Assembly: GCF_014281965.1 (NCBI RefSeq)
Contig: NZ_JACFTB010000007.1
Coordinates: forward strand, 1 to 64,000
Source of the DNA: Rhodococcus sp. BP22
GTDB lineage: Bacteria; Actinomycetota; Actinomycetes; Mycobacteriales; Mycobacteriaceae
Direction: 5' to 3'
DNA length: 64,000 nt
In this document: positions 7,017 to 37,146 of the stretch, in pieces
Layout of the letters: the number at the start of each line of letters is the position of its first letter
Position numbering within the stretch: the first letter of the stretch is position 1
Translations under genes and position numbers: made by a program
The notes under the pieces: generated by a model
Seen by the model: the letters and a program-made list of their open reading frames with translations, nothing else
Databases searched by the model: none
What the model was told of the DNA's origin: nothing

Positions 7017-7123
7017 GCATGTTGGTGCAGGGTACGAAACATCGTTGACACATAGAACTAACGTGTAACAGTTCCGAGGATCCGAACGACTCACTCCTCA
7101 GGACGCGAACAAAAGGAGACGAT

Positions 7124-7390
7124 GTGACATTGCAGATCGATTCGCTCGCCATCAGCGCCAACGGAGCACAAACAGACGAAGTCAAGATCGACCAGCTCGA
7201 TGAGCAGCTAGTCATGCTCGACGCCGATATTCTCGGCGCCATCGAACGCCGCACCGAATTGGCGCGCACGCTCGCCGCTGCCAAGGGCGAAGCAGCAGTT
7301 CCAGCTGAATCGACTACTTTCGATGCCCTCGGGTCGGACGGCTCGGTGTTCTCTCGGATGCTTGCACGCATTGCATCGAGCACACGCTAA
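7124..7390 (+). CDS. Chorismate mutase-like protein (AroQ fold), 88 aa
   Basis: A short helical protein whose N-terminal half has the AroQ pattern ID-LDE-LV-LDADIL-AIERRTELA. Chorismate mutases convert chorismate to prephenate for Phe and Tyr synthesis. After the first helix the similarity fades: the usual R-K---G----Y---RE of the active site is replaced by AAAKGEAAVPAESTTFD, so several substrate-binding residues are missing or moved. It may be a regulatory or inactive relative. The GTG start is preceded by AAAAGGAG, a strong ribosome-binding site. A strong stem-loop follows the gene. Confidence 0.65.
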   Translation: MTLQIDSLAISANGAQTDEVKIDQLDEQLVMLDADILGAIERRTELARTLAAAKGEAAVPAESTTFDALGSDGSVFSRMLARIASSTR

Positions 7391-7419
7391 GGAGTTACGT
7401 CCCCGGTCATTCGCTTTCA

Positions 7420-7459
7420 GTGGCCCCGCACAAAGCCGACAGGCTTGGTGCGGGGTCAC
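7420..7459. terminator. Bidirectional stem-loop between convergent genes
   Basis: An 18-bp stem (7420-7437 with 7442-7459) has one mismatch, one G-U pair and a GACA loop. It lies 30 bases after the chorismate-mutase-like gene and 57 bases after the SDR gene, which converge here. No long T tract follows, as is common for actinobacterial intrinsic terminators. Confidence 0.7.
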
Positions 7460-7516
7460 CTGCGTTCAGTCGGCCCGAGTTGGTCAGAGGTACCAGCGCT
7501 CACAATGCTCCGGTAC

Positions 7517-8254
7517 TCACAGGGCTCGCAGCGCCCCGCCGTCGACGGTGACCGTCGAACCCGTGATGTACGACGCGGCAGGCGAGGACAGAAACGCGAC
7601 AACTCTTCCGAATTCGTCAGGGTCACCGATCCGCCCGAGAGGTATGCGAGCCAAGTCCTCGTCGCCGACGGCTCCACCCCGAGTTGTATCGAATCGACCT
7701 GGCAGGACGCTGACGATGCGAATTCCTCGTGCACCCAGCTCGTCGGCCATATCCTTGGCGACCATTGCCAGCCCTGGTCGAAGACCGTTCGAGATTCCGA
7801 GGCCCGTCAACGGCGACTTCACCGAACTCGACAGCACCAGGACAACTGCGCCGCCTTCGGTCATCGATGCTGCTGCCGCTCTGACCAGCCGTACTGTTCC
7901 GAGAAAGATCGTGTGAAACGCATCTTCCCACTGCTCGTCCGTGGCTTCCAATGCCGTGCCGCGCGGTGGTCCGCCAACGCTGACAACGAGACCGTCGATT
8001 TTGCCCCAGTGCGCAAGGGCAGCCTCGACGACAAGTTCTGCGCTGCTCGGGTGGCCATTGTCGGCGACCATTCCGTTCACAGCGTTCGGGCGATGAGCGC
8101 CGAGCTCTGTCACCGCGTCGTCGACTTTCTCCTGAGAGCGAGACGACACAGTCACCTTCGCGCCCTCGCGTAGCAACTCGCGAGCACTGGCCAGACCGAG
8201 TCCTTCGGTTCCACCAGTGACGATGAACGACTTACCGGACAGTCCCAAATCCAT
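7517..8254 (-). CDS. Atypical short-chain dehydrogenase/reductase (SDR)
   Basis: 245 residues with a Rossmann fold. The cofactor motif TGGTEGLG (13-20) and the final TGSTVTVDGG are normal for SDR enzymes, and the active-site serine region LVLSSSV is present (141-145). The usual YxxxK is absent: the segment reads ISNGLRPGLAMVAKD, putting Ser and Arg where Tyr and Lys should be. This matches the atypical SDR subgroup that resembles FabG but may not reduce carbonyls by the classical route. The ATG at 8254 follows GAGGAGAATTC, a good ribosome-binding site. The gene lies alone downstream of the sigma-factor gene. Confidence 0.8.
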   Translation of the reverse strand: MDLGLSGKSFIVTGGTEGLGLASARELLREGAKVTVSSRSQEKVDDAVTELGAHRPNAVNGMVADNGHPSSAELVVEAALAHWGKIDGLVVSVGGPPRGTALEATDEQWEDAFHTIFLGTVRLVRAAAASMTEGGAVVLVLSSSVKSPLTGLGISNGLRPGLAMVAKDMADELGARGIRIVSVLPGRFDTTRGGAVGDEDLARIPLGRIGDPDEFGRVVAFLSSPAASYITGSTVTVDGGALRAL

Positions 8255-9384: not shown

Positions 9385-9533
9385 TTCTTCGACAATAGTG
9401 CCCTCCCCCGACAGATGCGCGGTACTTCTCACACCCGATGCACGACGTACCGCGGCAGAGGTCGGCGGCCGCGCATCCCTGCGCTAGCCTTCGGTGCACC
9501 AAGGCCGAAGTTCATCGATCGAAAGCAGCCCCC

Positions 9534-10535
9534 ATGACAACATCGACGAGCATCGATGACCTCGTCGAGGAGGTGTATCTGCAGCGTGGTCGCGCTTGGC
9601 AAGCAGCGCTGGTCACCACGCAGAACTTTCTCGAAACAATTGCCGACGAGATTCTCGACAATGTCGATCGCGATCGCCTCAACGCCCAGTCTGCGCGAAT
9701 CAAGGACCCCGCCCGGGCCGCGGACAAGTTGCGTCGCAAGATCGCCGAAGGCCGGATCACCGAGCCCAACACGGTGGATGAGGTCGTCGATGCCCTCGGT
9801 GACCTCATCGGAATCAAAGTCCTGTGCAAGAGCCCCCGCGATCTGCACGCGTTCGTCGAGGCATTGGAGTTGGCTTGTCGGGATCCCGAGTGCTCAGTGC
9901 GCTTCGCAAAGGACCCGATGAATTACGTGGCGTTTCCCAAACCGAGCGGCTATCGGGCGTACCACGCGGTGCTTCTCGTTAGGGTTGCAACGCACCAGGG
10001 CGACATGGATGTCAAGGTGGAGGTTCAGGTGAAAACCCGGCTGCAAGACGCCTGGGGCGAGCTGACCCACGAGGACATGTACAAGCCCGGTGAGGCACTC
10101 AAGCCGTCGAAGACTCATGAGAATCAAGCTCGCCATATGGCCGATCTGCTGTTGCAGGTCGATCTGATGGCAGACGATCTCGCGGCACAACTCGATTCAC
10201 AGACCACAGCTGCCAAAGATGTTGCCGCCGAACCGACTCCGGTGCCGAAGGATTCCGCGATCATCAGCGCGCGCGTGACCAGGACCGGTCCGCGCTACGC
10301 GTTGGCCGTGGGCCCCGACGGTCGACGCGGGCTCATCCCCGCCAGGTCGGTGAAGGCCGTCATCGGAGCCACGGACCGTATCGATGTCGACGACTACCTC
10401 GAAGTCGGGGATGTCGTTCAGGTCGTCGTCGAGGATTCCGAAGATGCGCTGTACTACCATCTTTCGTCTCAACCACCGTCCCGTCGCTCCAGGCGCCGCC
10501 GACGCGGGAAAGTGGGAGCGGAGCCTGCGGAGTGA
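9534..10535 (+). CDS. RelA/SpoT-domain protein with C-terminal S1/OB-like domain
   Basis: 333 residues. Residues 50-215 show the (p)ppGpp synthetase fold: ARIKDPARAADKLRRKI (54-70), DLIGIKVLC (90-98), KPSGYRAYHAV (136-146) and VEVQVKTRLQDAWGELTHEDMYKP (162-185), the last matching the catalytic E-Q-R-T---W---H--YK block. Residues 242-310 (ISARVTRTGPRYALAVGPDGRRGLIPARS...VGDVVQVVV) look like an S1-type RNA-binding fold, followed by a basic tail. There is no HD hydrolase domain. It could make alarmone or act as an RNA-binding relative; Lys replaces Arg in the QVKT motif. The last codons and the stop lie inside a 34-bp tandem repeat array. Confidence 0.75.
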   Translation: MTTSTSIDDLVEEVYLQRGRAWQAALVTTQNFLETIADEILDNVDRDRLNAQSARIKDPARAADKLRRKIAEGRITEPNTVDEVVDALGDLIGIKVLCKSPRDLHAFVEALELACRDPECSVRFAKDPMNYVAFPKPSGYRAYHAVLLVRVATHQGDMDVKVEVQVKTRLQDAWGELTHEDMYKPGEALKPSKTHENQARHMADLLLQVDLMADDLAAQLDSQTTAAKDVAAEPTPVPKDSAIISARVTRTGPRYALAVGPDGRRGLIPARSVKAVIGATDRIDVDDYLEVGDVVQVVVEDSEDALYYHLSSQPPSRRSRRRRRGKVGAEPAE

Positions 10536-23539: not shown

Positions 23540-24106
23540 GGACTGACCGACAGCTACGACGCCGAACGCCGCCCAGTCGGCGAAGAGGTCGTCGGGATGA
23601 CGGTCCGAAACGCTCGCGAGGGAATCGATGCAGGCGAAAGCTCCGTTGAGATGGCGAAGCGCAAGCAAGCTCAACTCCTGATCTCGTAGACAGGAAGCCC
23701 GTTGGTCTCCGAGTCCGACCCGACAGCAGCCGTCGTACAGCCCGGAGAACGCGCCCCCGATGCGCGGGGACTGACCCGTGACATGGTCGCGTTCCCCATC
23801 CGCCTGTTCGAACTCTTCGGTGGCGTCGGCCACACGCTCCTGTTGTAGTCGGACGGTGAGATCGAAAAATTCGAAGAGCTTGCCGCTGCAACCGTCGACG
23901 CCGCGCACGGACTTCTCGACGTCTATCTGGTGGCGGCGAGCCACGTGACCTCCGTGCTCCCGGTCGTTGTAGATTCCGCGAGCGAATTTTGCAGCACATA
24001 CGATGTCACCGGTCCGACTGCGTTCGTCATCCGCCCCGACGGGTACCTCGGCCATCGGGGTCTCGAGGGAGTGATCGAGAACCTGACGAAGACATTCGCG
24101 CGATGA
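23540..24106 (+). pseudogene. Remains of a PheA/TfdB-type FAD-dependent monooxygenase (C-terminal part)
   Basis: One plus-strand frame reads LTDSYDAERRPVGEEVVGMTVRNAREG, the end of the FAD-binding domain of aromatic hydroxylases. After QAQLLIS comes a TAG (23687-23689) where relatives have Tyr, then PGERAPDARGL and FELFGGVGHTLLL followed by a second TAG, again at a usual Tyr. The frame continues through a thioredoxin-like C-terminal domain (GPTAFVIRPDGYLGHRGLEGVIENL) to TGA at 24106. The N-terminal two thirds are missing. Two nonsense codons plus the deletion mark it as a relic. Such enzymes hydroxylate phenols or polyketides. Confidence 0.8.
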
Positions 24107-24309
24107 GCTGTCCGGCGTAAAAATCGAGCCAAAGGGCATAGAGTCAGGCGAGATCGTCGTGAAAAGTACTCGCAGGAGAACAATTCCCCGTCCCGACTGC
24201 ATCTTTCGACACCGGTGAATTATCCGCTGGCGACCGTATTTGTTGGGCTCACATCCACTGCGTCAGAGAAACTTTCGTACGCAATCAGGCGTGCGTACAC
24301 ACGACTGGC

Positions 24310-24333
24310 TTTTATTTTCTTTTGGGCTACAGT
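24310..24333 (+). promoter_or_regulatory. T-rich promoter-like element, copy 1
   Basis: TTTTATTTTCTTTTGGGCTA is followed by CAGT, so that TACAGT (24328-24333) can act as -10. The same block, with one indel, occurs at 25549-25571. The downstream GTG is at 24370, with GAAGGAG nine bases before it. The element stands out in otherwise GC-rich DNA. Confidence 0.5.
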
Positions 24334-24369
24334 TTATAGAACTGATTGAACCGAAGGAGTGAGTCTACC

Positions 24370-24804
24370 GTGAAAGCGGTTATGATGGAATTTAATTTTC
24401 GGGTATGCGCCTCACCCGAACGACTTCGACAATTTCTGGAGCAGGGGGAAATTGCTCTTGATACAGCATGCCCGTTCCGCGTACAGCGTGAACGCACCGT
24501 TGACGAGGTGATTTCACCCCTCCTGTCACGGCAATGGGACCGACTCAATGTCTCCGGGTTGTTTCCTCAACCGCAAGTGTGGGAGATCGGGTATGGCTTC
24601 TCCGACCCGACAGGTCGGCTGACCGGTGACAAACTCGAATCGATGTCGAAAGACGTCACAGCCGATCTGCAGCACTCTCGCGCCGATAATTTCAGCGAAT
24701 CCGCCCCCTGGATTCTGACGCTGGCGACCGATACCGACCGTGCGACGCGCCAGACGATCATCAGCCGCTATCGAACGCTGGAGCTGGCCCGCTCGTCCCC
24801 CTGA
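24370..24804 (+). CDS. Hypothetical protein, 144 aa
   Basis: I do not recognise it. The protein starts VKAVMMEFNFRVCASPERLRQFLEQG, is soluble and mixed alpha/beta, and has no membrane segment. GTG at 24370 is chosen because GAAGGAG precedes it at nine bases and a promoter-like element lies 37 bases upstream. The 5' part is clearly richer in A and T than the neighbouring operons, which may point to acquisition. It is followed 70 bases later by another unknown gene. Confidence 0.5.
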   Translation: MKAVMMEFNFRVCASPERLRQFLEQGEIALDTACPFRVQRERTVDEVISPLLSRQWDRLNVSGLFPQPQVWEIGYGFSDPTGRLTGDKLESMSKDVTADLQHSRADNFSESAPWILTLATDTDRATRQTIISRYRTLELARSSP

Positions 24805-24874
24805 GGCGCCGTGAGTGTCGTTGTGTCGACTCCCCCCGGTACCTCGATTCACCACAGCAACAAAGAGGTCGATC

Positions 24875-25498
24875 GTGAATATGGCTCTCGTCGAGATCAG
24901 TACGCCACCGCTGTCCGCTTGTCCAACGGACAATCCGCGAGCGGGAACCACGGCCGTTGCACTTGTCATCGGACGGCCCATTTCGCTTCACCAAGACCTG
25001 CACAGCGGGCTCGTCGACCAGGGCGTCGAGGTGACTGTTCGTAGTCCTGACGTGAGTGCCGACCAGCTCGGTGGTACCACGCATGCCCACCCGTCAGCGC
25101 CGAACGATGTTTTCGTCGACGGTCAGGTGACGGCAGAAACCATCATCGTCACCACCGAGTTTTTGTCGGAAGGCCGCGGACTGGTCGCCCGCTGGCGCGA
25201 GCGCGCCGCGCAGTCCGAGGAGAACAACAGAATTGCTGCCGCAGCTGTCGATGCGTCGTCGGACTACAGCACGTGCCGGCTCCTTGTTTTGTGCGATGGC
25301 AGAGCCGTCTCCCACGCTGGGCCGGAGGTCCACAACGCGAAGCGACTGGCTCAGCGGTTGAAGTACGAAATCGAAGTCGACGGAACACCCGTCGTATCCA
25401 GCTCGTACCTCGTCGTCGGCACCACCTCACCGCTACCCGAGGCAATCGAGGCGATCGCGCGATGGTGTCGGCGGGAGACTGCGCCGATCCCGAAGTGA
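24875..25498 (+). CDS. Hypothetical protein, 207 aa
   Basis: I do not recognise it. It is a soluble protein with beta-rich stretches (TAVALVIGRPISL, ETIIVTTEFLSEG, CRLLVLCDGRAV) and an amphipathic C-terminus. GTG at 24875 has AAAGAGG just upstream. The first residues (VNMALVEI) resemble the starts at 24370 and 25602 weakly. It lies between two copies of the T-rich promoter-like element and shares its strand with the genes on either side. Confidence 0.5.
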   Translation: MNMALVEISTPPLSACPTDNPRAGTTAVALVIGRPISLHQDLHSGLVDQGVEVTVRSPDVSADQLGGTTHAHPSAPNDVFVDGQVTAETIIVTTEFLSEGRGLVARWRERAAQSEENNRIAAAAVDASSDYSTCRLLVLCDGRAVSHAGPEVHNAKRLAQRLKYEIEVDGTPVVSSSYLVVGTTSPLPEAIEAIARWCRRETAPIPK

Positions 25499-25548
25499 CC
25501 ACGCACGTGTCGGCGCGCTGAAAGTGGCCGAAACTGCTGTGACTGGAG

Positions 25549-25571
25549 TTTTATTTTTTTCGGGCTACAGT
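25549..25571 (+). promoter_or_regulatory. T-rich promoter-like element, copy 2
   Basis: TTTTATTTTTTTCGGGCTAC followed by AGT repeats the element at 24310-24333, including GGGCTACAGT. It precedes a 22-codon GTG frame at 25602 with AAGAAGG before it. The remaining 320 bases up to the Gre-like gene hold no gene I can support. Confidence 0.5.
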
Positions 25572-25601
25572 CAGAGAAAGACACGCGATGCGAAAGAAGG
25601 T

Positions 25602-25670
25602 GTGAACGCTGTGATTCCTATTGTTGTAGAGCTACGCGGTTGTTTGTTCACCGCTCCGCCAGGGCACTAG
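25602..25670 (+). other. 22-codon frame resembling the start of the gene at 24370
   Basis: The frame reads VNAVIPIVVELRGCLFTAPPGH. It matches VKAVMMEFNFRVCASPERL in register (V-AV, then R-C----P) and sits 53 bases behind the same promoter-like element (60 bases at 24370). It may be a decayed duplicate of that gene's 5' end or a leader peptide. Confidence 0.3.
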
Positions 25671-25991
25671 ACTGTTCCACCTGAATTCGTCGATGCACCG
25701 AAAAACTACGCTGCACCTTTCGCCGTCGTGCCGGTGTTTTTACCGCCACACCACTGATACCAGCTTTCGATTCACTGTTTGTGAACAAAGAACACTGCGC
25801 GATTGCAGCCCTTCGTAACGACTGTTGGTCGGCGATACATCTCTGAACGCCGAAAAAGCGGGCATCGACTCGGTGCCACATTTTTTGTTTACTGCACCTG
25901 ACGTGTCGAGCACTGCTCGCCGCGTCGATACCTGTATTTCCACGACCTCGGAATGGGACGACCGCCGAGTTTTAGTGCAAGGAGAAACTCC

Positions 25992-26501
25992 ATGACAATC
26001 GCTGAACTTATCGTGAACCCAGGTGCCGCAACAGACGAAGCCGCCGAACTGTCTGCCTTGCACACCAGGCGTGCTGAAGTCGCAGCCGATGTAATCGAGT
26101 TCCGCAACATGGGCGATCTCGAGAACAACGATTCCTACCATCGCTCTCGCGAGGAATTGTCGAGCATCGACCGCCGCATCGCGGAGGTCCAGGAATTGGT
26201 GTCTGCTGCATCTACGGTGACCGACGACGGCACCGTGCGGCCGTTCTCGCTTGTCACCGTGATGTTCGATCACGACCCCGACGACGTCGAGACGTTCGTG
26301 TTGACTGCGGCCACGGGCAACTCCGCGGACGAAATAGCGACATGTTCGCCGTTGTCACCGCTCGGCAGAGCACTGATGGGGTGCCGCGTCGAGGATGAGC
26401 GCACCTACGTACTCCCAACAGGCGCAGAGAGCACCGTTACCGTTCTCTCGATTGCCGCAGGTCTCGAACGACGACTACTGGAATCTCGGACAGTCGAATA
26501 G
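25992..26501 (+). CDS. Divergent GreA/GreB-family transcription factor, 169 aa
   Basis: The N-terminal coiled coil has RNMGDLENNDSYHRSREELSSIDRRIAEVQELV (38-70), as in Gre factors, and the C-terminal domain has LSPLGRALMGCRVEDERTYVLPTG (121-144) followed by a final strand. Gre factors enter the polymerase secondary channel and stimulate cleavage of backtracked RNA using two acidic tip residues in GDLxEN. Here the tip reads GDLENN: the first Asp is kept, but the second acid is replaced by Asn with a Glu one position earlier. It may therefore bind polymerase without normal cleavage activity. AAGGAG nine bases upstream supports the ATG. A strong terminator follows. Confidence 0.75.
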   Translation: MTIAELIVNPGAATDEAAELSALHTRRAEVAADVIEFRNMGDLENNDSYHRSREELSSIDRRIAEVQELVSAASTVTDDGTVRPFSLVTVMFDHDPDDVETFVLTAATGNSADEIATCSPLSPLGRALMGCRVEDERTYVLPTGAESTVTVLSIAAGLERRLLESRTVE

Positions 26502-30771: not shown

Positions 30772-30850
30772 TCGGCAGGTAACGAAGAGACGCTGACACG
30801 AGGGCGGTTCGGGACTGCCGTTCGTGTCGGACCCCATCGTTACTGTCCTT

Positions 30851-30880
30851 CTCGTCAGGCGGATTCGGCCGCCTGACGAG
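30851..30880 (+). terminator. Perfect 12-bp hairpin between two genes on the same strand
   Basis: CTCGTCAGGCGG, loop ATTCGG, then the exact complement. It lies 79 bases after the acidic protein gene and 15 bases before the GTG of the next gene. No T tract follows. It may end the upstream transcript or shape the leader of the downstream one. Confidence 0.6.
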
Positions 30881-30895
30881 AGGGAAGGCGTCATC

Positions 30896-32182
30896 GTGTC
30901 GGACAATCGCAAGATCGACCTTCAGGACTCCATCGACGAAGCGTGGTCGTCGTACGCCCAAGATCTGATGTCATTCGTATCGGACATGACACGCCGTGAA
31001 ACCCTAACGCTCACTGCAGAATCCGGACTCGATCGCGGTGACGGGGACAGCCCCTGGATCGCGCTTCAGGCAGAACACGACGGCACCATCGACTGCACTG
31101 CCGTTCTCGACAGCTATCTCTACGAGGATGTGGAACCGCCTGCCGGTGACGACGCCGCGCTGTTCGCTCTGGGGTGGGTCACTCCGGCGACACAGACCGA
31201 GGTCGGCCAGCTCGTCAGCCGTTCGATGATCGGTCATCGCGACAACGCCGAAGAGCTGTCTCGTTCGATAGTCCGCGCGTTTCGCGAGGTCTGGAACGTC
31301 GCCCATCCGGCGTTTCTGTCGGCTGTAACAGAAGGCGGAAGTGGTCGACAGTTCCGAACTGCCGTCGATTGCCGCACAGTCGATGCCACAGCAGTGATCC
31401 CCCTCGACCTCGATCATCTACGTGCCCTCATCGTCCAGACTGTCGATGTCCACTTCGATCTTGCTCGAGAACCGAATGGAGACATTCGTATAGACGGGTT
31501 CGCACTCCCCGTGCACGTCTGCTTCGATCACGACGCGACGTCGGTCCGCATACATGCGCCGCTGGTGACCGGAGTGTCACAATCTGCGACGCTGTCGCGG
31601 ATGATGTCCTCGCTCACCAGCAGATGGAAGAACATCACCTTCGTCGTGGCCGGCGATCAACTGTTCGCGGGTATTTCGATCGATACGCGGACTTTCATCC
31701 CCCGTCAATTGACTGTGCAGCTCTATCGATTCGGCCACTTCCTCGAAGGTATCGACGAGCCGTTCGCCCATCGTGTCGGTGGGACGATCTTCGATCCGAC
31801 TCATCGCCACGAAGATCCACATCCACCCGTGTCGTGGTCCGATGACGGAGGAACGCTCGGCACACTCCGGGCAGCATGCGAATTGACCGGCGGCCCAGTA
31901 GATTCCGTCACAGTCGACACCCTGTGCCGACGCCAGGATGTCGAGGAGCTGACCCGACGCGCACTGTGGACGGCCCAGCGCTTCCGCGATCACGCACATC
32001 GACTCGGAGACGATCGACGCGTACGTGCAGCCGTCCTATGCGACTCGTTCGCGCTGAGCTGGACCGATGTTGCCGAGAGCCTGCGCCGGACGAATCGGCC
32101 TGCGCGACTCCTCACTCCGCGGCCCGAGCAGATTCAACTCTTCGATTCGCTCGAAGAACCTGGACTGTTCGATATGCAGTAG
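30896..32182 (+). CDS. TY-Chap-like protein, second paralogue
   Basis: 428 residues. It is homologous to the protein at 1551-2741 along most of its length: REVWNVAHPAFL, KNITFVVAGDQLFAGISIDTRTFIPRQL, EPFAHRVGGTIF and the helical C-terminus with CELTGGPVDSVTVDTLCRRQD all align with counterparts there. The family is annotated as a T3SS-chaperone/YbjN-like peptide-binding fold; its function in actinobacteria is unclear. I place the start at GTG 30896, preceded by GAGGGAAGG, because the longer frame from 30824 would begin inside or before the hairpin at 30851-30880. The last ten residues (SLEEPGLFDMQ) are acidic and hydrophobic. Confidence 0.7.
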   Translation: MSDNRKIDLQDSIDEAWSSYAQDLMSFVSDMTRRETLTLTAESGLDRGDGDSPWIALQAEHDGTIDCTAVLDSYLYEDVEPPAGDDAALFALGWVTPATQTEVGQLVSRSMIGHRDNAEELSRSIVRAFREVWNVAHPAFLSAVTEGGSGRQFRTAVDCRTVDATAVIPLDLDHLRALIVQTVDVHFDLAREPNGDIRIDGFALPVHVCFDHDATSVRIHAPLVTGVSQSATLSRMMSSLTSRWKNITFVVAGDQLFAGISIDTRTFIPRQLTVQLYRFGHFLEGIDEPFAHRVGGTIFDPTHRHEDPHPPVSWSDDGGTLGTLRAACELTGGPVDSVTVDTLCRRQDVEELTRRALWTAQRFRDHAHRLGDDRRVRAAVLCDSFALSWTDVAESLRRTNRPARLLTPRPEQIQLFDSLEEPGLFDMQ

Positions 32183-32221: not shown

Positions 32222-32896
32222 GTGGCTACCGAAGATCACCCCGATACCCCGTTGACAGATTATCCGCGGCCGTCGGTTGCCGTGGATGTCGCAGTGCTGA
32301 CGGTACGAGACAACACGCTGTGCGTCGTCGTCGTACCTTCACCGAGGGGTCGCGCACTACCCGGAACCTTCCTGCATCCGGGCGAGAGATTGGCGGACGC
32401 AGCCGAACGCGCCCTTCGCATCAAAGCGAGTATCAGTGGCCTGTCGTTTCATCAGATCGGGATGTTCGACGAGCCGAACCGAGACGATCGTGGCTGGGTG
32501 TTGTCCATGGCGCACGGCGCTGCAGTGGCCTATGAAAAACTGGGCACCGCAGTCGATCTCGTCGAGATTCACAACGGATCGCCGACCTCTGAACTCGCGT
32601 TCGATCATAACGCGATGGCGGCGCTGTCGGTGGTAGATCTGCGCGAGCGATACGGTTCGAAGGTGGACCCGGCCCACCTGCTCGGATCCACCTTCACCTT
32701 GCTCGAGCTCAGGAGACTCTATGAGGTCATCTACGACAAGGAGATTCCCAAAGACACCTTCAGGCGGCATGTCGCGGGTGCGCTGATCGGCACCGGCGAT
32801 TCGTCGATCGCGGGCGCCGGCAGGCCGGCCGAGCTGTACCGCAGAAACCCTGACGCTCGGCTGTCCGAGTCCGCTGCGGCCCTCTTCAAGAGCTGA
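32222..32896 (+). CDS. nrtR: NrtR-type regulator (NUDIX domain plus winged helix)
   Basis: 224 residues. The N-terminal 140 residues have a NUDIX fold (VAVDVAVLTVRDNTLCVVVV...ALPGTFLHPGERLADAAERAL), but the catalytic GX5EX7REUXEEXGU box is degenerate, as in NrtR regulators, which sense ADP-ribose-type metabolites instead of hydrolysing them. The C-terminal 60 residues form a winged helix (FTLLELRRLYEVIYDKEIPKDTFRRHV) that binds DNA. NrtR family members repress NAD metabolism genes. Here the neighbours are two ADP-ribose enzymes. The GTG start is probably leaderless. The gene symbol reflects family assignment, not proven function. Confidence 0.8.
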   Translation: MATEDHPDTPLTDYPRPSVAVDVAVLTVRDNTLCVVVVPSPRGRALPGTFLHPGERLADAAERALRIKASISGLSFHQIGMFDEPNRDDRGWVLSMAHGAAVAYEKLGTAVDLVEIHNGSPTSELAFDHNAMAALSVVDLRERYGSKVDPAHLLGSTFTLLELRRLYEVIYDKEIPKDTFRRHVAGALIGTGDSSIAGAGRPAELYRRNPDARLSESAAALFKS

Positions 32897-32910
32897 GGCC
32901 CGGCGCGGGG

Positions 32911-33420
32911 TTAGCTCAGCAACCGGGTTGTCAGCTTTGCTCCCCGTGCGGAAAAGGCCACCACCGACACCACCTCGACTCGAGTGTATGCACCGACGAT
33001 CGCTGCAAGCTGTTGCGTTATAGCATCTTCCAGCGGCCAACCGTACGATCCCCCGGAGATCAACGGAAAGGCCACAGTTCGCGCACCGAGCGAATCAGCG
33101 ACTGCGAGACTACGTATGTACGCAGCCCGCAAGATGCCGGAGCGATCCTCGTGCGCCGAATAGCGCGGACCCACCGCGTGAATTACCCACTTGGCTGGCA
33201 AGAGACCTGCCGTCGTCGCGACTGCCCCACCGGCTGCAAGACCGTTGGGTAGGGACGTATTCCGCAGAACCTTGCACTCGGCAAGCACGTCCGGCCCACC
33301 TGCTCGGTGGATGGCCCCGTCCACGCCTCCCCCACCGAGCAGCGCCGAGTTCGCCGCATTGACAATGGCGTCTACGCGCACTCTGGTGATATCGCCTTCG
33401 ATGACATCGATGATTGTCAT
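32911..33420 (-). CDS. Macrodomain protein (O-acetyl-ADP-ribose deacetylase type)
   Basis: 169 residues, a single macrodomain. Conserved elements: GDIT at 9-12, VDAIVNAANSALLGGGGVDGAIHRAGG (16-42) with the catalytic-site Asn and Asp, and the phosphate loop FPLISGGSYGWP near 118-130. Such proteins deacetylate O-acetyl-ADP-ribose or remove ADP-ribose from acidic residues. The ATG at 33420 overlaps the stop of the upstream ADP-ribosylglycohydrolase in an ATGA, so the two are translationally coupled. It converges with nrtR at a 14-base gap. Confidence 0.9.
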   Translation of the reverse strand: MTIIDVIEGDITRVRVDAIVNAANSALLGGGGVDGAIHRAGGPDVLAECKVLRNTSLPNGLAAGGAVATTAGLLPAKWVIHAVGPRYSAHEDRSGILRAAYIRSLAVADSLGARTVAFPLISGGSYGWPLEDAITQQLAAIVGAYTRVEVVSVVAFSARGAKLTTRLLS

Positions 33421-34361
33421 GGCGTGCCTCCTGAATTGGCTACGATATCGTCGGCAATCGCGACGAGATCGTCAGCGGTGAGTTGCGGATATCCATGGAG
33501 CATCGTCCGCCAACGCGTCGGCACAGCCGACGCGCCCCATCTGGCACCTAGCAGTCCGCCCGCAATCGCTGCAGTCGTGTCGGTGTCGCCACCTGCAAGA
33601 ACACACAATTCGAGGGCTTGGACAAGGTGCTGTGGTCCGCCCTGGTCTGCTCTCACAATCGCCCACCATGCAGTCTGCAGCGCGTGGACGACCCAGCCGT
33701 TGTTCGGAAAGTCCGACGGTTCACCATGCTCCGCCTCGTCGAGCAGAGGCCCCCAAAATGCTGCCGATTCCGCAGAGTCGACCCATAGCCGAATGCCGTC
33801 GAAGCTTCCCTCGAGCACGGCATGGCGGATCGCGAACGACCACATCTGACACGCTTGGGCGGCGCGAGGGTCGGAGTGTGTCAGAGCGCTGATTGCGGCG
33901 GCGGCCTCGACACACTTCGTTGCACTGTCGAGGTAGCGGAGTGCGACTGGGGCTGTCCGCATCAACGAGCCGTTTCCACCTGTCCTGCCGGTGAGTGCAC
34001 CTGCACACCTGGTCATCTCGGCGGCACTTGCACTACGGCGTCGCAGCACAGCCCGCGTTTGGTTGCCGATATCTGCTGGTTTCGTGTCGTACCAGGCGAG
34101 AAAGTTCGCGGCGACGGCGTCGAGGCCGTCGCCGGTGCCGACGTCTGCGCCCTCTCGTGACGCCAGAGCGATGGCAGCGGCCATCGACGTGTCGTCGGTC
34201 CATTCCCCCGGGGCCCAATGGAATGTTCCGCCCCCGACCATGTCGATGGCGGTACCCGGTGCCGGGTGAGTGAACTCGTACCCAGCGCCGAGCGCATCTC
34301 CTGCGGCGGTGCCCAGCAGCACGCCTGCGGCGCGATCGGCCTGTAGTGGCGTAACTTTCAC
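33417..34361 (-). CDS. ADP-ribosylglycohydrolase (ARH/DraG family)
   Basis: 314 residues. Metal-binding motifs are intact: GTAAGDALG (17-25), EWTDDTSM (53-60) and, near the C-terminus, CVLAGGDTDTTAAIAGGLLGA, whose Asp residues complete the binuclear magnesium site. These enzymes remove ADP-ribose from arginine or other acceptors. GTG at 34361 is chosen because AAAGGAG lies six bases before it; TTG at 34367 would touch that signal. It is the first gene of a two-gene operon with the macrodomain gene and has a palindromic operator 34 bases upstream. Confidence 0.9.
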   Translation of the reverse strand: MKVTPLQADRAAGVLLGTAAGDALGAGYEFTHPAPGTAIDMVGGGTFHWAPGEWTDDTSMAAAIALASREGADVGTGDGLDAVAANFLAWYDTKPADIGNQTRAVLRRRSASAAEMTRCAGALTGRTGGNGSLMRTAPVALRYLDSATKCVEAAAAISALTHSDPRAAQACQMWSFAIRHAVLEGSFDGIRLWVDSAESAAFWGPLLDEAEHGEPSDFPNNGWVVHALQTAWWAIVRADQGGPQHLVQALELCVLAGGDTDTTAAIAGGLLGARWGASAVPTRWRTMLHGYPQLTADDLVAIADDIVANSGGTP

Positions 34362-34384
34362 GTGCAACTCCTTTAGCTCGATTC

Positions 34385-34530: not shown

Positions 34531-35547
34531 ATGACACTTTCGTCAGCACCGCGCACGCGATCGGCCGTCACCGACGCGGAGGCCGAGCAGTACAACGAGA
34601 CGCTCCGACTCCTGTCCGAAGGATCAGTGGACAAGCATTTCGATCCGTACGTGGACATCGACTGGGATTCTCGCGAGTTCGAAGTTAGCAAGGACGACCG
34701 CCGATGGATACTCCCGGCGACAACCGACCCGCTCGGCGGCCATGCCTGGTATCAGGCGCTACCGGAAGACCGTCAGATCGCTATTGGTATGTGGCGCCAA
34801 GCCAATATCGCCAAAGTCGGATTGCAGTTCGAGAACATCCTCATTCGCGGGATGATGCAGTACGTATTCTCACTGCCGAACAACTCAGCCGAGGCTCGCT
34901 ATTGCACCCACGAGTCGATCGAGGAGTGCAATCACACCCTCATGTTCCAAGAGATGGTCAACCGCATCGATGCAGACGTGCCAGGTATGAACCGTCAGAT
35001 GAAGTTGATCTCCCCGATCATTCCATTGTTCTCGACGCTGCTGCCCGAGCTGTTCTTCGTCGGGGTCCTCGCCGGCGAGGAGCCGATCGACCACATCCAA
35101 AAGGCGTTTCTACGATCGGGTGAAAAAATTCATCCGATCATGCAGAGCGTCATGGTCATTCACGTCGCGGAAGAAGCGCGTCACATTTCGTTCGCGCACC
35201 AGCTGTTGCGCCGCCGGGTGCCGCAGATGTCCAGGCTCGGACGCTTCTTGTTGTCGTTGGCATTCCCCATCACCATGCGAATCCTATGCGATGTCATCGC
35301 CATTCCACCGAAGAAGTTCTGGCAGAAGTTCGACATCCCGAAGTACGTCAAGGACGACTTGTTCTGGGGCACCGAACAATCCCAGCACAGGTTGCAGGAC
35401 TATTTCGGCGACGTTCGCATGCTGGCGACAGACACCGGCATGATGAATCGCTCGGCAAAACTACTGTGGAAGGCGTGCGGAATCGACGGCAGAGCGTCGC
35501 GCTACCGCAGCGAACCCGATCGCAGCTCCGGCCACTTCGCAGCTTGA
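34531..35547 (+). CDS. AurF-family diiron oxygenase
   Basis: 338 residues, soluble and helical. Iron-ligand candidates appear in the order of the AurF (p-aminobenzoate N-oxygenase) family: Glu101 in FENILIRGMMQY, Glu132 and His135 in HESIEECNHTLMF, and HVAEEARHISFAHQ at 211-223 with His211, Glu215 and His218. Such proteins use O2 for N-oxygenation or hydroxylation and need an electron donor. The next gene on the same strand, 48 bases on, is a ferredoxin-containing reductase and is the likely donor. The substrate is unknown. AGGGAG before the ATG serves as ribosome-binding site. Confidence 0.85.
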   Translation: MTLSSAPRTRSAVTDAEAEQYNETLRLLSEGSVDKHFDPYVDIDWDSREFEVSKDDRRWILPATTDPLGGHAWYQALPEDRQIAIGMWRQANIAKVGLQFENILIRGMMQYVFSLPNNSAEARYCTHESIEECNHTLMFQEMVNRIDADVPGMNRQMKLISPIIPLFSTLLPELFFVGVLAGEEPIDHIQKAFLRSGEKIHPIMQSVMVIHVAEEARHISFAHQLLRRRVPQMSRLGRFLLSLAFPITMRILCDVIAIPPKKFWQKFDIPKYVKDDLFWGTEQSQHRLQDYFGDVRMLATDTGMMNRSAKLLWKACGIDGRASRYRSEPDRSSGHFAA

Positions 35548-35595: not shown

Positions 35596-37146
35596 ATGCC
35601 CCACATCGTTACTCAGTCATGCTGCAGTGATGCGTCATGCGTCTACGCATGCCCTGTCAACTGCATTCATCCGACGCCGGATGAGCCTGACTTCCTGACG
35701 GCCGAGATGCTGCATATCGACCCGTCGTCGTGTGTCGACTGTGGTGCCTGCGTCTCGGCGTGTCCGGTGGACGCGATCGTGCCGAAAGCCAAGCTCACCG
35801 AGGCGCAGTTACCGTTCTTGCAGATCAATGCCGACTTCTACAAGCAGGATCGGCCTGCGCGTCCGTTGCTTGCGCCGGTCTCACCGGCTCCGACCGTCGC
35901 CAGGGAGCGCCAGCCGCTTCGCGTGGCTATCGTCGGGTCGGGACCTTCGGCGATGTATGCGGCCGACGAACTTCTCACCCAACCTGGAGTGAAGGTCGAC
36001 GTCTACGACCGACTGACCAAACCGCACGGTCTGGCACGGTTGGGCGTAGCGCCGGACCACGAAAAGACCCGTCAGGTATCTCGGCTGTTCGACACAATCG
36101 CTGAGCAGCCTGGATTCCGATTCCATCTCGGTATCGAGGTGGGAGTGGACATTACGCATCAGCAGCTGCTGGATCAGCATCATGCCGTGATCTACGCAGT
36201 AGGTGCATCGTCGGATCGGGAGTTGACGATTCCTGGTGCGAGACTTCCCGGTCGGGGGTCGGCCACTGACTTCGTCGCCTGGTACAACGGTCACCCCGAC
36301 CATGCCGAGCGCCACTACGACCTGTCCCACAAACGGGCGATCGTCATCGGTAATGGCAACGTGGCCCTCGACGTGGCCCGAATCCTGACGATCGATCCCG
36401 AACGTCTGGTCGGCACGAACGTGCCCCTACACGTACTGAAAGCGTTGCGGGAGTCCAGCATCGAAGAGGTACTGGTGGTCGGCCGGCGCGGCGTCGCACA
36501 ATCGGCCTTCACAGTTCCGGAGTTCGCCGGTCTGCTCGGCACCTCGGGGGTGGAGGTTTCTACTCACCGCGACGAGATCGTGCTCGACGCAGCCACGATC
36601 GCCTTGATCGAAACCGACGAGCTCCCGCATGCAGTAGTTCAGAAGTTGCGCCTGCTGCAGAGATTGGAGGACTCGGAAAGTAGAGGCGGTAAGCGAATCA
36701 TGCTGCGCTATCTCCTCTCCCCCAGGCGAATTCTCGGTGATGCGGCCGTGACCGGTGTCGAGTTCGATCGCATGGCACTCGATACCGGCATCGACGGCAC
36801 GGTTCGTAGCGTCGCGACGGGTGAAGTCGAGACCATCGACACCGGGCTGGTATTGACGTCGATCGGCTACCGTGGCGTGGCGATAGAAGGTGTGCCGTTC
36901 GACGAACAAGCAGGAATCATTCCCAACGACGACGGCCGTGTCCTCGAATCGGCCTGCGGTGCACAGTTTCCCGGAACCTATGTCACCGGCTGGATCAAAC
37001 GCGGGCCGTCGGGATTCATCGGTACCAACAAATCCTGTGCACAGAGAACTGTGTCCAATCTAGTTGCCGACTTCAACAGCGGCAAGCTTGCAGACATCGA
37101 CTTTTCCGCGCCTGTGAAGCGACGCAGTTGGCTGCGCCGCCTCTGA
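35596..37146 (+). CDS. fprB: Ferredoxin-fused NADP reductase, FprB-type
   Basis: 516 residues. The N-terminal 65 residues are a bacterial ferredoxin with two clusters: Cys9/10, 15, 19, 23 and Cys46, 49, 52, 56 (SSCVDCGACVSACPVDAI). From about 108 follows an adrenodoxin-reductase-type flavoprotein: FAD fold VAIVGSGPSAMYAADEL, GLARLGVAPDH, NADP fold AIVIGNGNVALDVARIL, VVGRRG, and a C-terminal GWIKRGPSGFIGTNKSCA. This is the architecture of mycobacterial FprB. It moves electrons between NADPH and iron-sulfur or diiron partners, here probably the AurF-type protein. The Cys pattern of the first cluster allows a 3Fe-4S or 4Fe-4S cluster. Confidence 0.9.
   Translation: MPHIVTQSCCSDASCVYACPVNCIHPTPDEPDFLTAEMLHIDPSSCVDCGACVSACPVDAIVPKAKLTEAQLPFLQINADFYKQDRPARPLLAPVSPAPTVARERQPLRVAIVGSGPSAMYAADELLTQPGVKVDVYDRLTKPHGLARLGVAPDHEKTRQVSRLFDTIAEQPGFRFHLGIEVGVDITHQQLLDQHHAVIYAVGASSDRELTIPGARLPGRGSATDFVAWYNGHPDHAERHYDLSHKRAIVIGNGNVALDVARILTIDPERLVGTNVPLHVLKALRESSIEEVLVVGRRGVAQSAFTVPEFAGLLGTSGVEVSTHRDEIVLDAATIALIETDELPHAVVQKLRLLQRLEDSESRGGKRIMLRYLLSPRRILGDAAVTGVEFDRMALDTGIDGTVRSVATGEVETIDTGLVLTSIGYRGVAIEGVPFDEQAGIIPNDDGRVLESACGAQFPGTYVTGWIKRGPSGFIGTNKSCAQRTVSNLVADFNSGKLADIDFSAPVKRRSWLRRL

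Follow-up and report, generated by a model that had tools for sequence, protein, structure and literature searches.

A GreA-family paralogue with a conserved, altered tip is linked to a small gene cassette and a private promoter-like element in Rhodococcus sp. BP22 and its relatives

Within a 64,000-nucleotide stretch of the Rhodococcus sp. BP22 genome (the window), we identified a gene for a GreA-family paralogue (Table 1) that carries the same type of altered catalytic tip in every relative aligned, is under purifying selection in the window's own group, and is linked to two proteins without a known family (X and Y) and to a private 31-bp promoter-like element. On sequence grounds we propose, with moderate confidence, that its product is a conditional GreA-type factor of the RNA polymerase secondary channel, probably metal-binding, with altered cleavage activity and under private control.

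Table 1. Positions in the window of the paralogue gene and associated features.
Feature	Position	Strand	Remarks
31-bp promoter-like element before X	24303..24333	+	one of two matches in the genome
X, 144-aa protein without known family	24370..24804	+	GTG start presumed; conserved next to the Gre paralogue or in its vicinity
Y, ~205-aa protein without known family, perhaps Rossmann-like	24881..25498	+	start not certain
31-bp promoter-like element before the Gre leader	25541..25571	+	the other of two matches in the genome
Untranslated Gre leader, 420 nt	25572..25991	+	between element and ATG
Possible leader peptide, GTG..TAG, 19 codons (VIPIVVELRGCLFTAPPGH)	25611..25670	+	ribosome binding site-like AAGAAGG upstream; putative
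Terminator-like hairpin and T tract in leader	25861..25886	+	kept in 4/4 close genomes
GreA-family paralogue gene	25992..26501	+	169 aa; PF03449 and PF01272 over cut-off; tip GDLENNDSYH
Codons for the altered tip (residues 41-50)	26112..26141	+	pattern match and alignment

The reading frame is exact, running from an ATG at 25992 to a stop codon at 26499-26501, with a ribosome binding site-like AAGGAG directly upstream. Its product exceeded the Pfam cut-offs for both the N-terminal coiled-coil domain (PF03449, 39.2 bits against 24.5) and the C-terminal domain (PF01272, 41.8 bits against 26.9) of GreA/GreB. Scores lay below the cut-offs of the NCBIfam GreA models NF001262 (101.9 bits against 161) and TIGR01462 (69.5 against 139), of the GreB models (37 against 188 and 30.9 against 171) and of NF004548 (56.1 against 126), whose members we take to be of the Rv3788 type; the score of 101.9 bits, being lower than the GreA equivalog cut-off of 161, counts against a GreA-type reading. 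No protein in the host genome exceeded the NF004548 cut-off, and the only further protein matching the N-terminal Gre domain was the main GreA (tip GDLKENGGYH), which is encoded on contig C23, the window lying on contig C32. An initial sequence-only reading was thus right that the paralogue does not lie at the housekeeping greA place. Its placement of the gene in an AT-richer accessory segment is weak, and the neighbours are more than unknown genes: the gene itself is only slightly AT-rich (59.4% GC, against 61.3% for the window, with ~16% of 510-bp tiles lower), the AT-rich stretch being the untranslated leader before it (52.9% GC), and X and Y, although of no known family, form part of a cassette that is conserved and has its own private promoter-like element.

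Elsewhere in the window, genes for an NrtR-type winged-helix regulator, a Macro-domain protein and an ADP-ribosylglycohydrolase adjoin one another as an NAD/ADP-ribose gene group (32222-34367). A RelA/SpoT-domain protein with a weak, below-cut-off S1-like match in its C-terminal part is encoded at 9438-10535, two TY-Chap (YbjN/CesT-like chaperone domain) proteins at 30824-32182 and 1551-2741, and an AurF-type N-oxygenase at 34531-35547, followed by an open reading frame at 35596 that looks ferredoxin reductase-like by eye.

At the tip, the paralogue aligns with GreA without gaps. Measured against the D41-x-x-E44 pair of E. coli GreA, Asn stands at the E44 position and Glu at 43, just as had been read from the letters alone, and alignment with the genome's main GreA, the check proposed at that stage, set GDLENNDSYH against GDLKENGGYH. 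A tip of the form GDL[DE]NNDxYH, with Asp at 41 and Asp or Glu at 43, was found in 16/16 distinct paralogue rows from three genera; main GreAs read GDL[KR]ENGGYH in 35/35 rows. These rows are the fetched loci minus duplicates, not all matches, and 15 of the 16 paralogue rows were fetched through overall similarity, the remaining one (locus L058 in genome G121) through the tip pattern; its gene was also reached by the X search (as L095). The script named groups by their tips, and the tree described below splits the same rows by whole sequence; assignment by alignment placed L009 with the paralogues and L034, L044 and L047 with the main GreAs. Because all 16 paralogue rows carry it, the altered tip is neither an oddity of one strain nor a product of chance, and a normal tip in close orthologues, the outcome that was to have counted against the initial reading, was not seen.

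Like GreA of the MtbGre (Rv1080c) type, the paralogue has both Pfam domains, the Asp, Asn and Tyr of the tip, and the SPLG-loop Ser (this residue, preceding PLG, did not vary in an alignment of 16 rows), so that equivalents of MtbGre D43, Asn47, Tyr50 and S127 are all retained. It differs from that type in having Asn in place of Glu (E46), an acid in place of the preceding Lys/Arg, a private element and a cassette; the D-x-x-E-N motif of GreA proper is replaced by GDLENN here and by GDL[DE]NN throughout the 16 rows. Gfh1 of Thermus/Deinococcus likewise has an altered acidic tip on a Gre fold, but its Asp-rich tip aligns as SSDDYDDSG, whereas the paralogue keeps GDL..N...YH and matches Gfh1 more weakly than it matches GreA (2e-5 versus 5e-8). 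In proteins over the NF004548 cut-off the tip reads GD[HR]GDAAxAx (4/4), without the Asn and Tyr that the paralogue retains. Rv3788 of M. tuberculosis offers a parallel as a second Gre-type protein in an actinobacterium (excerpts of PMC3132773 and PMC4598747).

Distribution was surveyed in samples of the host's family (Mycobacteriaceae), order (Mycobacteriales) and phylum (Actinomycetota). A match at the level of the main GreA was present in 37/37 genomes of the genus searched and the paralogue in 7/37, namely the host's own, three at 89-91% identity, one at 63% and two at 48-51%; identity was 91% in Rhodococcus sp. H36-A4 and 89% in Rhodococcus sp. 1168. Fourteen of 401 family genomes contained the paralogue at E 1e-23 or better. 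A fifteenth, G121, was found via the tip pattern, which indicates that this threshold can miss diverged paralogues; the 15 genomes are spread over three genera. As DNA patterns, which need exact letters and were applied to samples of which the host's family is just a part, the strict tip GDL[DE]NNDxYH matched in 3/397 genomes of the order, all three in that family, and the wider GDLxNNxxYH in 1/296 phylum genomes, the window's own.

In a phylogenetic tree, 35 main GreAs formed one clade (support 99/92). The paralogues, ~35-42% identical to main GreAs, fell outside it in two clades of 7 rows (95/83) and 9 rows (86/95), the union of which was unresolved, and the NF004548 proteins stood far off and separate from the paralogue, with a warning of long branches from the tree program. 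Given its position outside the main clade, the paralogue seems not to have arisen by recent duplication of the local GreA. Models of anti-phage defence gave no match for the paralogue, X, Y or the gene divergent from X described below, PHROGs gave none below E 0.02, and viral contigs gave none for the Gre subfamily, X or the 31-bp element. Among plasmids and phages, the paralogue as query returned only GreA-like matches with identities no higher than 40% (19 and 4 records, respectively) and X returned no match. In open-licence literature on Gre factors, no such GreA paralogue was described among the matches listed.

The cassette was found by comparing the window with 14 further 14-kb surroundings. 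X comprises ~144-165 residues with 34 invariant columns in an alignment of 13 sequences; Y, of ~200-215 residues, changes faster. Neither had a convincing sequence match in Pfam or the PDB. Matches judged to be chance were, for X, Pox_G5 (E 0.003, in 1/13 X proteins), DpdD (0.02) and one PDB chain (0.036) and, for Y, five Pfam families at E values of at least 0.015, each with one Y protein, and twelve PDB chains, the best being RDE-4, a tail protein and an ATP-grasp protein (0.03-0.07). The second half of Y perhaps resembles a degenerate short-chain dehydrogenase; matches of Y to Rossmann-type PDB proteins occurred from 0.5 up only. In two other genera the order is X-Gre-Y on a single strand, with genes overlapping or nearly touching (locus L073 is without Y), and in one of them a dehydrogenase gene (Pfam ELFV_dehydrog), presumably for glutamate dehydrogenase, often follows. 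The window has the order X-Y-leader-Gre, with the ELFV_dehydrog gene convergent.

X is present in 24/401 family genomes and in 3/397 genomes of the order, all three in the host's family. Its frequency among paralogue genomes is 13/15, which is higher than that in the family overall with a Fisher p of 3e-16, a value not corrected for kinship. The linkage is incomplete in both directions. Among 26 X loci, 14 have an intact paralogue adjoining, 3 an internally deleted Gre fragment, and 9 no Gre in their flanks; none was found at these nine in the wider 9.4-15 kb either, and 7/9 are also without Y. Conversely, two genomes (G003 and G007) have the paralogue without X. Deletion at 3 and absence nearby at 9 of 26 X loci identify Gre as a dispensable member of the cassette, and these loci, together with G003 and G007, count against the reading proposed at the outset. 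At the deleted loci (L112, L113 and L114, at about 7119-7560) the tip has been removed and the gre remnant runs into Y, which in L113 is itself broken up over two frames.

Such remnants and absences are what would be expected if a once useful GreA copy in the X-Y cassette had become nearly neutral and were being lost. We consider gene loss unlikely: the paralogue has a dN/dS of 0.06-0.20 in comparisons of the four close genomes (X has 0.09-0.18, and the dehydrogenase gene next to the cassette 0.02-0.03), the same tip type is found across genera, and in the Rhodococcus group Gre has an element of its own, even in the two genomes without X. The compact X-Gre-Y arrangement in the other genera, and, in the Rhodococcus group, the presence of the 31-bp element upstream of both X and Gre, could also point to a complex in which X, Gre and Y act jointly on RNA polymerase, with Gre entering the channel. 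This we regard as very improbable, as X occurs without Gre at 9/26 loci and Gre without X in two genomes; structures of X and Y, predicted from three near-identical sequences, were of low confidence (mean pLDDT 45 and 34, respectively).

Upstream of X, the 31-bp element consists of GACTGG, 15 mostly T residues, and GGGCTA[CG]AGT. A search pattern derived from both copies in the window and allowing up to 3 mismatches had exactly 2 matches in the 4.48-Mb genome, with 0 for the reversed pattern in the genome and 0 in 100 shuffles of the window. With a looser pattern and up to 2 mismatches, the element was detected in 24/26 genomes having X or the paralogue and in 0/8 having neither, the reversed-pattern control giving 0 in all 34; the two misses, G031 and G072, have a more diverged version before X. 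By position, the 43 matches stand before X, a divergent gene or Gre; the single exception lies in G092, ahead of a solitary Y homologue from which a short open reading frame separates it. The element ends 30-49 nt before the presumed GTG start of X and contains a TAnnGT box; a sigma-70 consensus was looked for there and not found. Because the alignment search fixed the letters CTGG, GCTA and GT, invariance at those letters is no evidence. Behind the same element and divergent from X lie genes for a basic protein of 37-38 residues (MAEKNSSSKKRRQ...) and then a protein of 145-164 residues with no Pfam match (L065 7809-8453, L070 8346-8972, and others).

We infer that the element acts as a promoter. 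Its reader is probably something other than X or the paralogue, since each of these is missing in some element-bearing genomes, so that neither would serve in every genome; Y was not seen near the element, as judged from neighbourhoods, in several genomes that keep it. Speculatively, and we think this rather doubtful, the element could be a private promoter recognised by a dedicated initiation factor encoded elsewhere, with the paralogue and its re-set metal site as the small regulon's specialised escape or cleavage factor alongside X and Y, and with the short open reading frame and terminator-like hairpin of the leader sensing elongation or translation.

The distance from the element to the ATG is 411-420 nt in 4/4 close genomes, and 270 and 286 nt, respectively, to the start of the open reading frame used in G003 and G007. 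The possible leader peptide is near-identical in three close genomes and shorter in G003 and G007 (VIPDGAEVR and VIPDVAQVG). The hairpin and T tract lie 111-114 nt before the ATG in all four close genomes (dG -10.4, -9.0, -5.8 and -5.9), and a terminator scan found five sites, against 2.3 expected. Since shuffled leaders reach equally low values (-10 to -16, best of 30 each), the hairpin as a terminator is suggestive only. Rfam had no match in 24100-26100. Derivation of the leader (25572-25991) from X by decay was rejected, the X profile giving a best E of 0.2 with likeness confined to the first codons. For E. coli greA, a terminator within the leader, autoregulation and GraL are described (excerpt of PMC6829880), which makes leader control of the paralogue worth considering. 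In both cases a gre-type gene stands behind a leader with a terminator-like structure; the leader here differs in being 420 nt long with a possible short open reading frame.

The sequence-only reading held that the protein probably enters the polymerase channel and may not promote normal RNA cleavage. On the nature of the protein, which is a true paralogue of GreA whose tip is altered throughout the relatives aligned, that reading stands; the step from loss of the second acid to loss of cleavage is unsecured, as MtbGre E46R, altered at the same position, keeps cleavage. In the excerpt of PMC3132773, D43N and S127E abolish cleavage by MtbGre and E46R retains it, a printed mutant primer establishing that E46 is the E of GDLREN; Rv3788 is described there as non-cleaving though both acids are present, which is ascribed to its absent Asn47 and Tyr50. 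In E. coli GreA, changes at D41 and E44 as a rule weaken or abolish cleavage and leave binding intact (excerpt of PMC3078854), and contact of both residues with a magnesium ion is called essential (excerpt of PMC7527559). Published data therefore allow either outcome, cleaving or non-cleaving, for the paralogue.

A non-cleaving competitor resembling Gfh1 or Rv3788, which when induced would fill the secondary channel and block GreA or slow RNA synthesis, is a possible but tentative explanation. The Asn at the second acid position in 16/16 rows would fit it, as would the usual effect of E44 changes in E. coli; moreover, Gfh1 and Rv3788, described as inhibitors in the excerpt of PMC4598747, inhibit despite the acids at their tips (also PMC3132773, in excerpt). 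A mere plug, however, would not need Asp41, Asn45, Tyr48 and the Ser equivalent together with an acid at 43, the E46R result runs counter to it, and the nearest solved relative is not Gfh1, E. coli GreA and a GreA/Gfh1 chimera scoring higher. Retention of the acid at 43 in all 16 rows favours a re-set metal site over a plug. For retained cleavage, then, speak the active E46R protein and the kept D41, acid at 43, Asn, Tyr and Ser; against it speak the E. coli results for D41 and E44.

Under the preferred reading of a conditional, cleavage-altered GreA-type factor, firing of the 31-bp element would lead to production of X, Y and the paralogue. The SPLG loop retained in the C-terminal domain of the paralogue would be its docking site for RNA polymerase, and the coiled coil would place the tip at the active centre, where the Asp kept at the D41 position and the acid moved to 43 could still hold the second magnesium ion, and Asn45 and Tyr48 could touch backtracked RNA. 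The paralogue would most likely still stimulate cleavage, though at a changed strength or specificity, and would compete with the main GreA.

The paralogue amounts to a natural experiment on the tip residues required by a Gre factor: its second acid has shifted by one position, the change is kept across genera, and laboratory results for that acid in E. coli and in M. tuberculosis do not agree. The setting of the paralogue is of more interest than the tip alone: a small cassette of proteins without known family, from which the regulator is repeatedly missing, has a promoter-like element of its own and is linked to a regulator of RNA polymerase.
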